Source: Rhodovulum bhavnagarense (GTDB taxonomy: Bacteria; Pseudomonadota; Alphaproteobacteria; Rhodobacterales; Rhodobacteraceae). From it: a stretch of DNA of 64,000 nucleotides. The notes under the pieces were generated by a model. It ran no database searches, had not been told where the DNA came from, and saw nothing but the letters and a program-made list of their open reading frames with translations. The DNA lies in NCBI RefSeq assembly GCF_004343505.1, contig NZ_SLXU01000004.1, positions 124,001 to 188,000 on the forward strand, given 5' to 3'. Each line of letters opens with the position of its first letter. Position 1 is the stretch's first letter. Shown here in pieces: positions 14,346-53,826 of this stretch. Made by a program: the position numbers and the translations under genes.

Positions 14346-14405
14346 TTCTTCTTGGTAAAAATACCCTGGGGGAGTCGCCCATGGGGCGACGGGGGCAGCG
14401 CCCCC
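14346..14405 (-). repeat. Rhodobacterales-type intergenic repeat, probable terminator (copy R2)
   Basis: Read on the minus strand, GGGGGC-gct-GCCCCC (14405-14391) is followed by a GTCGCCCC-at-GGGCGAC hairpin (14390-14374). Then comes GGGTATTTTTACCAAGAAGAA, which ends at 14346. It lies 38 bases after the DUF3775 gene stop and so fits as the terminator of that operon. It occupies most of the structured part of the 14030-14443 gap; no gene is visible in the rest of the gap. Confidence 0.75.
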
Positions 14406-49940: not shown

Positions 49941-49956
49941 TGTGTCGAACACGACA
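49941..49956. promoter_or_regulatory. NifA upstream activator site of nifH
   Basis: TGT-GTCGAACACG-ACA matches the TGT-N10-ACA consensus exactly. It lies 68 bases upstream of the -24 element. Confidence 0.88.
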
Positions 49957-50012: not shown

Positions 50013-50064
50013 GGGTATTTTTGCCAAGAAGAAGGACAGGGGGTTCTTCTTGGTGAAAATACCC
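50013..50064. repeat. inverted pair of the GGGTATTTT..CCAAGAAGAA repeat (copy R5)
   Basis: Arm one, GGGTATTTTTGCCAAGAAGAA (50013-50033), and arm two, TTCTTCTTGGTGAAAATACCC (50044-50064), are inverted with two mismatches. They can fold into a 21-bp stem with a 10-base loop. This is the only place in the window where two copies face each other. Confidence 0.85.
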
Positions 50065-50095
50065 GAAAAACAAGCGGCCCCCGGATGGGGGCCGC
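50065..50095 (-). terminator. terminator after the nifB-nifT-SIR2 operon
   Basis: A 9-bp perfect stem, GCGGCCCCC / GGGGGCCGC, with a four-base loop starts 34 bases after the SIR2-like gene stop. On the minus strand it is followed by TTGTTTTTCGG. Confidence 0.88.
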
Positions 50096-50129: not shown

Positions 50130-50963
50130 TCAGACGAAATCCGATAGCGCCTCTGTGACGGCGCAAAGCGGCAGGTCCAGCCGCTCGATCTCCAACTCGT
50201 CGAGGAAACGCGCTTCCATCCGGGTCAGATCGCCCTCGATCACGGCCACATGCCCCGGAGCCGAGCGCTTCGCGATCTGCCGGGCGAAACCGCGCAGCAT
50301 CTGGTCGTCGAACCGGCAGCCCAGGAACAAGAAGGGGCGGCCGCTGCGGCGGGTCTGGACCTCCTCGGGGATCGGCGACTGGATGTCGATTTCTGTCAGG
50401 ACCTCGACATAGTCGCTGTCGGACACCAGGCAGGAGTGGCCGGGCCGGATGACGCCATGGGGTTTGTAGATCAGCACCTCCCAATCCGGGGCGGGGTGTT
50501 CGCCGACAAGCCCGAGCTCGGCATCGTAGGCGCGGGTCCAGATCTCTTGCCATTCGCCGTTGCGGCTGACGCCTTGCACGAGGCCCCAACCGGGTTTGCC
50601 TTCGGCCTGCATGGCCGCGAGGATCGCGCTGTCATACCAGGCATCCACCACGAGCGGCGGACGCACCCGGGCAAGCCAGCGGTGCAACGGCCCCGGCACG
50701 CATTCACCGGAAAAAGCCTCCTGGACGATGGTGTCGAGCGTGGCGCGAAAACGGCGGCTCTCGACGAATTGGGCCACCGACCACAGGTTGCCCCGGGCGC
50801 GCCTGGGGGCGCGCACCCTGGCTTCGATCGCGGCGCAAAGGGCCTGGGGCGAGGCTGGCGGCGCATCGGAGCAAAGCGCGGCGACACCGGCGCCGAGATA
50901 GGGCACGCGATCGCCCGCGGCCACCTCGGCGAGGCATCGGGACAGGCGTTCTTCGGCCGCCAT
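50130..50963 (-). CDS. SIR2-like domain protein of the nif cluster
   Basis: The 277-residue protein has a sirtuin-fold core of the SIR2_2-like type. YLGAGVAAL (residues 22-30) is the nucleotide loop, LVVDAWYDSAIL (104-115) occupies the TTNYD position, IYKPHG (165-170) has the core His, and FLFLGCRFDDQMLRGF (211-226) is the typical C-terminal motif. The catalytic Asn of the TTNYD motif is replaced by Trp109. It may therefore bind NAD-like nucleotides without NADase activity. It is the last gene of the nifB operon, 5 bases after nifT, with its own terminator. Its role in nitrogen fixation is not known to me; sensing NAD(H) or ADP-ribose is speculation. Confidence 0.75.
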   Translation of the reverse strand: MAAEERLSRCLAEVAAGDRVPYLGAGVAALCSDAPPASPQALCAAIEARVRAPRRARGNLWSVAQFVESRRFRATLDTIVQEAFSGECVPGPLHRWLARVRPPLVVDAWYDSAILAAMQAEGKPGWGLVQGVSRNGEWQEIWTRAYDAELGLVGEHPAPDWEVLIYKPHGVIRPGHSCLVSDSDYVEVLTEIDIQSPIPEEVQTRRSGRPFLFLGCRFDDQMLRGFARQIAKRSAPGHVAVIEGDLTRMEARFLDELEIERLDLPLCAVTEALSDFV

Positions 50964-50968
50964 CGGCC

Positions 50969-51178
50969 CTACTCCACCGACAGGCGGCGGGCATCCACCG
51001 TGATCGGCAGTTTCGGGGCCTCGTCGAAGGCGGGCATTTCGAAGGTCCAGCCGTTCGAGAGTTTCGCCCAGCCGCCCCAGATGTCCGGTTTTTCGGATTC
51101 AACGATCATTTCCTCAAGATCCTTCTTGGGCACGTAGACTTCCATGCCCTTGGGCGTTTCACGGACCATAATCTTCAT
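50969..51178 (-). CDS. nifT: NifT/FixU family protein
   Basis: This 69-residue protein matches NifT/FixU: MKIMVRETPKGMEVYVPKKD at the start, GGWAKLSNGWTFEMP in the middle and ITVDARRL at the end. Its function is not established; it is dispensable in some diazotrophs. The ATG overlaps the nifZ stop by four bases. Confidence 0.94.
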   Translation of the reverse strand: MKIMVRETPKGMEVYVPKKDLEEMIVESEKPDIWGGWAKLSNGWTFEMPAFDEAPKLPITVDARRLSVE

Positions 51179-51453
51179 TGGTGTATCTCCTTGTCGAGGC
51201 TGTCGAGTTCGTTCTTGCGCATGCCGACGATGGACCGGCTGTCCACGAACTCGACCGCGTAGATGTAGAATTGCTGCAGGAAGGTGCCGATGTCGCGCAC
51301 ATAGCCGACCTCGCCCTTGTTCACGACGCGTTCGCCGATCTCGCGGCCGGGCACGGTGCCGTCGTTGCGGATATGCTTGCGCGCGCGGACCTTTTCGCCG
51401 GGTTCGAAGGCGGGGGGGCTGTAAATCTCGATTTCGCGGTCGTCAGTGGACAT
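51175..51453 (-). CDS. nifZ: nitrogen fixation protein NifZ
   Basis: The 92-residue protein has the NifZ core PPAFEPGEKVRARKHIRNDG and GYVRDIGTFLQQFYIYAVEFVD. NifZ assists P-cluster formation in MoFe protein. It overlaps the LRV gene stop by 11 bases and nifT by four. Confidence 0.93.
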   Translation of the reverse strand: MSTDDREIEIYSPPAFEPGEKVRARKHIRNDGTVPGREIGERVVNKGEVGYVRDIGTFLQQFYIYAVEFVDSRSIVGMRKNELDSLDKEIHQ

Positions 51454-52213
51454 CGGCGGCTCCTTCGGTGGTGAGCCGGGCCAGCCGCTCGGCGGCGGCT
51501 TCGCGGACCGGAAGCTCGGGGTCATTGATCAGGCGGCGGGCCAGGGCGGCATCGGCGCGCTCGGCCACGGCATGGCGGACGCGCAGATCCGGGTCTTCGG
51601 CCAGTGCGGGCAGGGCGGCGGGGTCGATCCGTTCGGCCGCCGCGCGGCGCACCTGCGGTTCGCGGTCGTGGCGCAGGTGGTCCAGCCAGCGCGGGGCGAT
51701 CCGCGTGGCGACGATTTCGCGGATTTCGGGGTCCGGATCGTGGATCAGGATCGGCAGCACGCCGGGATCGACGCGGCGGGCCGCGATCTGGCGCACGAAG
51801 GCGTCCTCGTCGTGCAGCAGCGGCATCAGGTCGGTCAGCGGCATCCGCCAGGCCAGCGCCAGCCGCACCTCGCGGTCGGGATCGCCCAGGGCCGCGCGGG
51901 CCTGGGCCGCGGGCAGGCGGATCGCGGCGATCGCGCGCACCGCCGGGTCGGGGTCATCCAGCAACGGGCGCAGGCGAAACACGCTGGCCACCCGTGCGGC
52001 CTGGGCGCGGGTTTCCCGATAGGGGGCGTCCAGGCACTGGTCGGCGGTGTCCGGGTTCATCATGAAAAACCGGGCGATCCGGGGCGCGTAGCGATCAAAG
52101 GCGCAGGCCCATCCCGGCCCGCATTGCCGCTGCGCCAAGAGCGACGCGAAGCGGCAACTGGCGCAGTCCAGCGCGCGGCCCTGCCAGTCAACCGGATCGG
52201 GGCCCTTCAGCAT
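51443..52213 (-). CDS. LRV-repeat 4Fe-4S protein of the nifB operon
   Basis: The 256-residue protein has an N-terminal cysteine cluster (Cys17, 20, 31 and 37; CASC-x10-C-x5-C) that fits the LRV FeS4 domain. It is followed by about eight 24-residue leucine-rich-variant/HEAT-like repeats with the pattern DPDPxVRxxxAxR. Related proteins lie near nif genes in Azotobacter. The repeats suggest a docking surface; partner and function are unknown. It lies 7 bases after nifB and overlaps nifZ. Confidence 0.88.
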   Translation of the reverse strand: MLKGPDPVDWQGRALDCASCRFASLLAQRQCGPGWACAFDRYAPRIARFFMMNPDTADQCLDAPYRETRAQAARVASVFRLRPLLDDPDPAVRAIAAIRLPAAQARAALGDPDREVRLALAWRMPLTDLMPLLHDEDAFVRQIAARRVDPGVLPILIHDPDPEIREIVATRIAPRWLDHLRHDREPQVRRAAAERIDPAALPALAEDPDLRVRHAVAERADAALARRLINDPELPVREAAAERLARLTTEGAADVH

Positions 52214-52220
52214 GGCCGGC

Positions 52221-53696
52221 TCAGGCGCCTTGGGCGGCGCGGGGCAGTCGGGCGGCGCGGGATTGCAGGACTGCGGCGATGGCGGTTTCGATGTATTCCT
52301 CGCCCAGGCTGTCGATCGCCTCGATCCCGGCTGCGGCCAGCCGTTTGCGCGGGCCTTCGCCGATCATCTGGCAAAGCACGTATGGCACGTCGTCGAGCAC
52401 CCGGATGATCTCGGCCATCCGTCCGCTGTCGCCATGGCCGCCCAGGCAGTAATTGTCCGCCCGGCGATGCCCGACAAAGCGGATACCGTCACTGTCGGCC
52501 TCGTAGATCTGGAACTCTGTCGCCTTGCCGAAATGCAGGTTGATCCGGCCAGACCCACGGGTGCAGACGGCAAAGAGCGTAGGCGCCTCGGTTGCGGCAG
52601 CAGCCGCATCGGCATGTTGGGCCGCGGCGGCGCGGTCCTTGCGTTCCTCGGCCACCCAGGCGCGGTAGGCATCGCGCGCCTCGGGGGCGTCTTCGATCAC
52701 CTCGGGCAGCTTGTCGAGGGTGAAGTCCTGCCCGCGATCCTCGCCCAGCAGGCCCACCGCATCGGCGCGGCACTGGCGGCAATGGCGCATCAGGTTGGCG
52801 CCGCCCGCGCAGGCGTCCTGGACCTTTTTCAGCTCGGCCGCGGTGGGGCCGCGCTGGCCGGTCAGGCCGAAATGGGTGCCATGCGCGGGATCGGAGATCA
52901 GCGGCATGATGTTGTGCAGGAAGGCGCCGCGCGCCTTGACGGCCTTGTTCACCTCGACAAGGTGATCGTCGTTGATCCCCGGGATCAGGACCGAGTTGAC
53001 CTTGACCAGCACCCCGCGCGCGGTCAGCATTTCCAGCGCCTGCAACTGGCGGTCGCGCAGAATCGTGGCGGCCTCGATCCCGGTATACCGCTTTCGTTCA
53101 TGAAAGATCCACGGGACGATCTGTTGCCCGATCGCTGGGTCGATGGCGTTGATCGTGATCGTGACATGATCAATGTTCATCGCCACGATTTCTTCGACGT
53201 GGTCAGGCAGCGCCAGACCGTTGGAGGAAAGGCACAGCCTGATATCCGGCAATCGCTCTGCCACCAACGCAAAGGTCGCCCTGGTCTTTCGCCAGTCATA
53301 GGCGGCATCCCCCGGCCCTGCGATGCCCAGCACCGACAGTTGCGGCAGCTCGGCGGCCACGGCCAGAACCTTTCGCGCGGCCTGTTCGGGCGTCAGCCGT
53401 TCAGACACCACGCCGGGTCGGCTTTCGTTGGCGCAGTCATATTTGCGGTTGCAGTAGTTGCACTGGATGTTGCAAGCCGGCGAAACGGCGACATGCATCC
53501 GGGCGAAATAGTGATGTGCCTCTTCGGAATAGCAGGGGTGGTCCTTGACCTTGGCCCAGGTCGCCGGGTCCATGTCATCGGGGCCCGCGGACGAGCCGCA
53601 GGAACCGGCAGAACAGCCCCCCTTTGCCAGCGTTTGGCCCATCTTTTCGCGGCTGGACAGCGACAGGCCGGCAATCGGGATCATGGGGGCGGACAT
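52221..53696 (-). CDS. nifB: FeMo-cofactor biosynthesis radical SAM protein NifB
   Basis: This 491-residue enzyme makes NifB-co, the [8Fe-9S-C] core of FeMo-co. The radical-SAM motif SPACNIQCNYCNRKYDC is at about residue 72. Further cysteines (HCRQCRADAVG) would bind the precursor clusters. The C-terminal third is a NifX-like cofactor-binding domain (GRINLHFGKATEFQIYE). The start MSAPMIPIAG follows a sigma-54 promoter 36 bases upstream; the longer open frame overlaps that promoter and is not used. Confidence 0.97.
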   Translation of the reverse strand: MSAPMIPIAGLSLSSREKMGQTLAKGGCSAGSCGSSAGPDDMDPATWAKVKDHPCYSEEAHHYFARMHVAVSPACNIQCNYCNRKYDCANESRPGVVSERLTPEQAARKVLAVAAELPQLSVLGIAGPGDAAYDWRKTRATFALVAERLPDIRLCLSSNGLALPDHVEEIVAMNIDHVTITINAIDPAIGQQIVPWIFHERKRYTGIEAATILRDRQLQALEMLTARGVLVKVNSVLIPGINDDHLVEVNKAVKARGAFLHNIMPLISDPAHGTHFGLTGQRGPTAAELKKVQDACAGGANLMRHCRQCRADAVGLLGEDRGQDFTLDKLPEVIEDAPEARDAYRAWVAEERKDRAAAAQHADAAAAATEAPTLFAVCTRGSGRINLHFGKATEFQIYEADSDGIRFVGHRRADNYCLGGHGDSGRMAEIIRVLDDVPYVLCQMIGEGPRKRLAAAGIEAIDSLGEEYIETAIAAVLQSRAARLPRAAQGA

Positions 53697-53732
53697 GGGC
53701 GGTCTCCTTCGGTTCGGCTCGACACTGGATAA

Positions 53733-53747
53733 GCAGCAACTGTGCCA
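53733..53747 (-). promoter_or_regulatory. sigma-54 promoter of the nifB operon
   Basis: On the minus strand: TGGCACA-GTTG-CTGC, correct -24/-12 spacing, 37 bases before the nifB ATG. Confidence 0.88.
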
Positions 53748-53810: not shown

Positions 53811-53826
53811 TGTCGGGGGCATGACA
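53811..53826. promoter_or_regulatory. NifA upstream activator site of nifB
   Basis: TGT-CGGGGGCATG-ACA matches TGT-N10-ACA exactly, 64 bases upstream of the -24 element. Confidence 0.85.

Follow-up and report, generated by a model that had tools for sequence, protein, structure and literature searches.

SIR2_2 proteins are known mainly as defence enzymes that destroy NAD. In ThsA, the N112A and H152A substitutions each abolish NAD cleavage, N112A together with NAD binding, and H152A also disturbs the oligomers (PMC7272460, accessible portion). The two residues were named as the catalytic dyad in a paper on DSR2, whose accessible part also refers to the Sir2 domain of ThsA N112A with ADP-ribose bound (PMC11263360).

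SIR2-like genes have also been reported from nif clusters, and we summarize here the accessible parts of those papers. In Rhodobacter capsulatus, rcc03262, a "SIR2 family protein", belongs to the operon nifB1-rcc03265-nifZT-rcc03262, and its product was detected in the wild type but not in a strain without NifA (PMC6925177). The "prokaryotic sirtuin-like" msi351 of Mesorhizobium loti R7A is the last gene of nifB-fdxN-nifZ-fixU-msi351, which has a NifA/RpoN promoter, and a disruption mutant was fully effective on Lotus with no symbiotic phenotype (PMC3538637), so that the protein is dispensable in one symbiosis. ZMO1821, a SIR2-like gene in the nif island of Z. mobilis, is upregulated under N2 fixation (PMC8600466, PMC8594446) and was proposed to encode a deacetylase; NifA and nitrogenase proteins are acetylated (PMC8600466). 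A figure legend for Rhodovulum also shows a "SIR2-like protein" after nifT (PMC9412634). We assign rcc03262, msi351 and ZMO1821 to the family described below by gene order and annotation: rcc03262 lies in the same operon order as our gene, and in other Mesorhizobium loci the family members come after nifB, nifZ and nifT, in an order matching that of msi351. The first-pass annotation of our gene knew of no described function. In the literature searched, as far as its text was accessible, the function is indeed undescribed, but the gene is not, having been found to be NifA-regulated, proposed as a deacetylase gene, and mutated in M. loti without symbiotic consequence. No discussion of the catalytic residues of nif SIR2 proteins was found in this literature, which lay mostly outside subscription journals. 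While the gene itself is already in print, the family-wide loss of its catalytic residues is new.

The stretch of DNA analysed here (the window) comprises 64,000 nucleotides of Rhodovulum bhavnagarense, in which the gene of interest lies in the following setting.

50130-50963, minus strand: nif-associated SIR2_2 gene, 277 amino acids, ATG start (open reading frame and PF13289)
50969-51178, minus strand: nifT (PF06988, TIGR02934)
51175-51453, minus strand: nifZ (PF04319)
51443-52213, minus strand: gene of an LRV FeS-cluster protein (PF05484, PF01816)
52221-53696, minus strand: nifB (TIGR01290), with an inferred start, the longest open reading frame running to 53921
53732-53747, minus strand: -24/-12 (sigma-54) element with one mismatch (motif)
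53811-53826, no strand assigned: NifA upstream activator site TGT-N10-ACA (motif)
50066-50095, minus strand: intrinsic terminator 3' of the SIR2_2 gene, hairpin 50074-50095 with a U-rich tract at 50073-50066

The order is nifB-LRV-nifZ-nifT-SIR2, and the Pfam and NCBIfam matches, which identify all the upstream genes, bear out the earlier claim that the SIR2_2 gene is the last of this operon. Five bases separate the nifT stop codon from its ATG, which is preceded by GGAG. The dedicated terminator (a strong hairpin and a U-run) and the adjacency of nifH were likewise correctly read, nifH being the next gene and having its own UAS-like site at 49941-49956. On the other side, nifA lies upstream of nifB on the same strand. 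The TGT-N10-ACA site and the -24/-12 element are 63 bases apart ahead of nifB. Taken singly, each motif occurs in the window about as often as in shuffled sequence (8 activator sites vs. a mean of 4.85, and 36 vs. 32.4 for the -24/-12 motif), so the evidence for the promoter is the arrangement of the two before nifB, which supports the NifA-type promoter noted earlier. The SIR2_2 gene is thus encoded with nif genes behind a predicted NifA/sigma-54 promoter, as would be expected of a nif accessory gene.

Five features of the protein are listed next.

50886-50900, minus strand: residues 22-26, YLGAG, what is left of the nucleotide loop GxGxS of SIR2 proteins (Ala instead of Ser at residue 28)
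50637-50639, minus strand: Trp109 codon TGG at the catalytic Asn site (alignment with ThsA)
50457-50459, minus strand: His169 codon CAT, core His of KPHG (alignment with ThsA)
50367-50420, minus strand: residues 182-199, nif-specific conserved DxDYVEVLTEIDIQ[ST]PIP (conservation across loci)
50301-50321, minus strand: residues 215-221, GCRF[DN]DQ (conservation across loci)

All four motifs read earlier (YLGAGVAAL, DAWYD, KPHG and GCRFDDQML) were found in the translated protein, and its assignment to the SIR2_2 type was confirmed by PF13289 (residues 104-260, E 2e-20, scoring 73.8 bits where the threshold is 24.5). This was the sole Pfam match in a search at E up to 10, where the HMMER filters drop most matches above 0.1, and Pfam found no second domain in the 277 residues. 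None of the NCBIfam models matched at E up to 1, and the CobB-type sirtuin deacylase family gave no match in that search or in Pfam, which returned SIR2_2 alone. The predicted model (pLDDT 91.5, pTM 0.91) has a sirtuin-type fold and matches SeThsA best (Z 19.6, rmsd 3.2, 244 residues aligned). Z scores were 19.6-17.1 against ThsA SIR2 domains and 19.2-15.5 against DSR2, with rmsd 3.2-4.0 over about 240 residues; KomC and SPARSA were further matches, and FAM118B and classical Sir2 scored lower. The protein therefore resembles the ThsA, DSR2 and KomC NADases in its fold (Z 19.6-15.5) and alignable core, but it differs from them in the Trp in place of Asn, a mostly lost GxGxS, a single domain and the nif context. 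Human FAM118A/B also share the SIR2_2 fold (9r3e, Z 13.8); according to the accessible text they retain Asn as well as His and, working as a pair, process NAD. In the genome of the window PF13289 matched only once at E 1e-5, so that a FAM118-like composite site with a second SIR2_2 protein is not likely in R. bhavnagarense.

A scan of GTDB genomes with peptide patterns of the window protein, none of which covered position 109, gave 90 relatives. The best 80 of these, in alpha- and betaproteobacteria, make up with the window the 81 loci considered below, identical copies (e.g., L045-L047) included. The nif-family profile aligns Trp109 with the catalytic Asn112 of ThsA (TTNYD) and places His169 on the core His of that protein. 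Residue 109 is Trp in all 81 loci, none of which has the catalytic Asn in a T[TL]N-x-D motif, and Trp was also found in 15 of 15 further alpha/beta rows of the same type from the genome search, near-duplicates included. The earlier statement that the catalytic Asn position is changed thus holds for the whole set. By contrast, 26 non-nif SIR2_2 controls of the same class had Asn in 22 cases by aligned match and in 3 more by motif search of the locus, L114 being the one unread at this site, and four nif proteins returned by the same search all had Trp. Judging from the alignment, Trp109 would sit in the former NAD pocket, and because Asn is replaced by Trp in 81 of 81 loci (the window plus the best 80 of 90), a role other than that of an NADase is likely for the family.

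His169 is kept in most loci. The window is one of the 70 out of 81 loci that have it (again the window plus the best 80 of 90); of the other 11, six have Trp at this site, four have Ile and one has Tyr. KPIG or RPIG, with both catalytic positions lost, is seen in L061, L063, L070 and L072; KPWG, giving Trp at both positions, is seen in L062, L065, L073, L074, L075 and L077. The idea of many independent losses of His169 found no support, as the 80-row tree needs at least two changes between His and not-His; the fewest letter changes at this site were six among the 76 Trp rows, and the root of the tree is unsure owing to the long branch to a distant clade. Pro168 was dropped as a nif-specific residue, since KPHG is found in L105 too, which is a non-nif control.

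These residues bear directly on two enzymatic explanations. Deacetylation of nitrogenase or NifA, as proposed for ZMO1821, would fit the upregulation of that gene under N2 fixation and the acetylation of NifA and nitrogenase proteins (PMC8600466, accessible part), but the protein belongs to SIR2_2 rather than to the canonical sirtuin family in Pfam, is without a match in NCBIfam, and has Trp at the Asn site in 81 of 81 loci (window plus best 80 of 90), and we regard this role as very unlikely. It is more unlikely still, indeed barely credible, that the gene encodes an NADase of phage defence that happens to lie in the nif cluster. Its best-scoring solved relatives are defence proteins and it has weak PADLOC ThsA matches (E 0.00055 and 0.033), but the Asn is lost, no further Pfam domain is present, the gene is found with nif genes, and its R. 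capsulatus counterpart is under NifA control in the portion of the report available (PMC6925177). Moreover, the 47 pattern matches in viral contigs included no confirmed relative, and a viral origin was rejected on the same count.

The nucleotide loop was earlier described as kept. YLGAGVAAL is indeed present, but GxGxS is incomplete, with Ala at residue 28. Of the 76 Trp rows, 8 have the complete GxGxS, compared with 20 of 23 non-nif controls (L114, L116 and L129 left out); in 65 of the 76 a residue other than Ser stands at position 28, and Gly26 is replaced by Glu or Asp in 10 of the 81 loci (window plus best 80 of 90). Loss of an aromatic nicotinamide-stacking residue was also considered and set aside: Trp is absent from residues 27-48 in 76 of 76 rows, but it is missing in many controls too. 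The first-pass annotation had proposed a protein that senses rather than degrades NAD or ADP-ribose and links redox state to nitrogenase. Its non-degrading half is supported by the invariant Trp109, while its sensing and redox-linking half found no support: GxGxS is mostly lost and, in the accessible account, ThsA N112A failed to bind NAD. A sensor whose pocket would bind NAD(H) or ADP-ribose without cleavage and so tie nitrogenase assembly to the redox or energy state is on balance rather unlikely. In its favour, conservation clusters in loops around the rim of what was the NAD pocket, and Asp107 and Arg217, both close to invariant and shared by the two nif clades, might hold a new ligand with a phosphate. 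In addition, the mention of ThsA N112A with ADP-ribose bound (PMC11263360, accessible part) means that ADP-ribose binding may survive without the Asn. The result with ThsA N112A (PMC7272460, accessible part) counts against NAD itself, as do the changes at residues 26 and 28 against the sensor as a whole.

A second, distant clade is also associated with nif genes. In the four members read at the residue level (the fifth genome, G440, lies outside these four), the motifs are DxNRD, with Asn kept and Tyr replaced, and KP[LM]G, with His replaced by Leu or Met. Four of the five distant members have nif genes in the stretch examined. L137 has nifB; in L134 and L135, nifHDK and nifT lie at distances of about 4.5 to 14 kb; L136 has a run of SIR2, SOD, rhodanese/ankyrin, glutaredoxin and BolA followed by nifQ (on the other strand) and nifB; and L138 has no queried nif gene in the stretch, with nifB on the same contig. 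We note that in L136 (7468-10490) the SIR2 gene heads the run and the second gene encodes an Fe/Mn superoxide dismutase. In a joint tree of 80 rows (L082, which is the window itself, and the near-identical L090 and L092 were left out), none holds both catalytic residues, because one clade lost the Asn and the distant clade lost the His.

Asp107, S-D-x-D-[YF]-V-[ED]...T-E and G-x-R are common to both nif clades, although few controls align in the latter two stretches and control L117 reads G-S-R. Asp107 is found in 81 of 81 loci (window plus best 80 of 90); elsewhere it is replaced by His in L096 and by Thr in L097, and the 22 controls for which the site was read directly carry Thr. Cys216 is present in 75 and Arg217 in 74 of the 76 Trp rows, Arg217 occupying the position of Ser in the G[YF]S of many SIR2_2 proteins. 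Such constancy could point to another kind of catalysis in the remodelled pocket, e.g., with Asp107, Cys216 and Arg217, but Cys216 is Leu in the distant nif clade, Asp107 varies in L096 and L097, and no candidate reaction suggests itself; we consider this unlikely.

The link of the protein with nif is real and wide. Across the 81 loci (window plus best 80 of 90), nifT, nifZ and nifB lie near the SIR2_2 gene in 78, 76 and 75, and 79 loci have at least one of NifA, B, Z, T, H, D, K and LRV. The remaining two, L065 and L066, have none of the eight genes asked for; L065 starts 1.6 kb from the contig end and L066 is a shortened copy. A wide spread of homologues without nif genes, which had been named as evidence against a nif role, was not seen in these loci or among nifB-negative genomes. 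In an even class sample of 385 genomes, with at most six first-look candidates scored per genome, the protein was found in 7 of 13 nifB-positive and 0 of 372 nifB-negative genomes (Fisher p 7e-12, a value that ignores kinship). When samples of the class, phylum and order were taken together and nearly all candidates scored, 21 of the 51 nifB-positive genomes had a match (16 of the window type and 5 distant, E ~1e-33) and 30 had none. Matching plasmid records number 76 (40 of them listed), and 71 of these come from Rhizobium, Sinorhizobium, Mesorhizobium and Bradyrhizobium. A Nonomuraea plasmid outlier (27% identity) has TTNYD and KMHG, i.e., both catalytic residues.

A protein serving the NAD-dependent ADP-ribosylation of NifH would be expected to co-occur with DraT. 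Such a link found no support, DraT being present in 6 of the 21 nifB-positive genomes with the nif SIR2 protein vs. 24 of the 30 without it; of 20 alphaproteobacterial nifB-positive genomes, 3 had both, 3 DraT alone, 11 the SIR2 protein alone and 3 neither. Dependence on NifT was discarded as well, since NifT occurs in 47 of the 51 and is too common for discrimination.

The family is under purifying selection, with dN/dS of 0.056-0.274 in 11 of 11 close pairs. An alignment of the window and 62 of the 80 loci (near-duplicates, some others, and the N-terminally shortened L052 and L066 omitted) has 37 invariant columns among 63 rows. Eleven of the 37 fall in the 24 residues 176-199, of which 187-193 are predicted with a pLDDT under 50. 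The seven loops at the C-ends of strands hold 12, compared with 2 at the N-ends, so that much of the constraint on the predicted model falls on the rim of the old ligand site and on a single flexible segment. Selection of this kind speaks against a dispensable passenger or decaying relic of the operon. That explanation draws on the M. loti mutant without symbiotic phenotype (PMC3538637, accessible part), on the 30 of 51 nifB-positive genomes without the protein and on the N-terminally shortened copies in two loci, L052 and L066; weighed against the invariant columns and the low dN/dS in every pair, it seems to us improbable. As a separate observation, an open reading frame of L052 (7731-8558, Salipiger thiooxidans) starts as NifZ and runs in frame into the C-terminal two thirds of SIR2; the locus has no nifT match, and the frame looks like a deletion fusion.

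We favour, with moderate confidence, the reading that this protein is a nif-specific, catalytically dead SIR2_2 pseudo-sirtuin that serves as a non-essential accessory binding factor of nitrogenase maturation. Enzyme activity is presumably absent, judging from the replaced residues and the model, and the protein is probably a binding or assembly protein rather than an enzyme. It would be made with NifB, the LRV FeS protein, NifZ and NifT from the NifA/sigma-54 operon. A Nif partner, or else a ligand that is not a substrate, would be bound by the remodelled cleft that once took NAD together with the conserved region 182-233. Such binding would aid nitrogenase maturation, usefully under some conditions only and without being essential. 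We infer that a role in nitrogenase assembly is the most likely one because the protein is co-produced with NifB, an FeS LRV protein, NifZ and NifT, and because the constraint falls on the cleft rim and the flexible segment. Against the pseudo-sirtuin we count the effective M. loti msi351 mutant (accessible part of the report), the 30 of 51 nifB-positive genomes without the protein, L065 and L066 without queried nif genes, and the retention of His169 in 70 of 81 loci (window plus best 80 of 90), which a purely structural role leaves unexplained. A ligand-gated checkpoint of assembly, in which a nucleotide or ADP-ribose-like signal in the pocket would move the 182-199 loop and tune NifB/NifZ-dependent cluster maturation, is an unlikely variant.

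Two related SIR2_2 clades thus belong to nitrogen fixation, each missing a different part of the catalytic dyad, which argues against the published assumption that the SIR2 protein of a nif island is a deacetylase. The analysis supplies a defined residue set and adds a conserved part to the nitrogenase assembly set, and it bears on attempts at moving nitrogen fixation into new hosts.

Two further observations concern neighbouring DNA. In a Burkholderiales nif cluster (L073, 9500-10447), an ADP-ribosylglycohydrolase family gene lies on the opposite strand 0.7 kb past the SIR2 gene. In the window, positions 50013-50064 form a big near-perfect hairpin (GGGTATTTTTGCCAAGAAGAA...), an arm of which recurs at 14346, 41210 and 45573 with 1-3 mismatches, giving five matches in all vs. 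0.01 expected.
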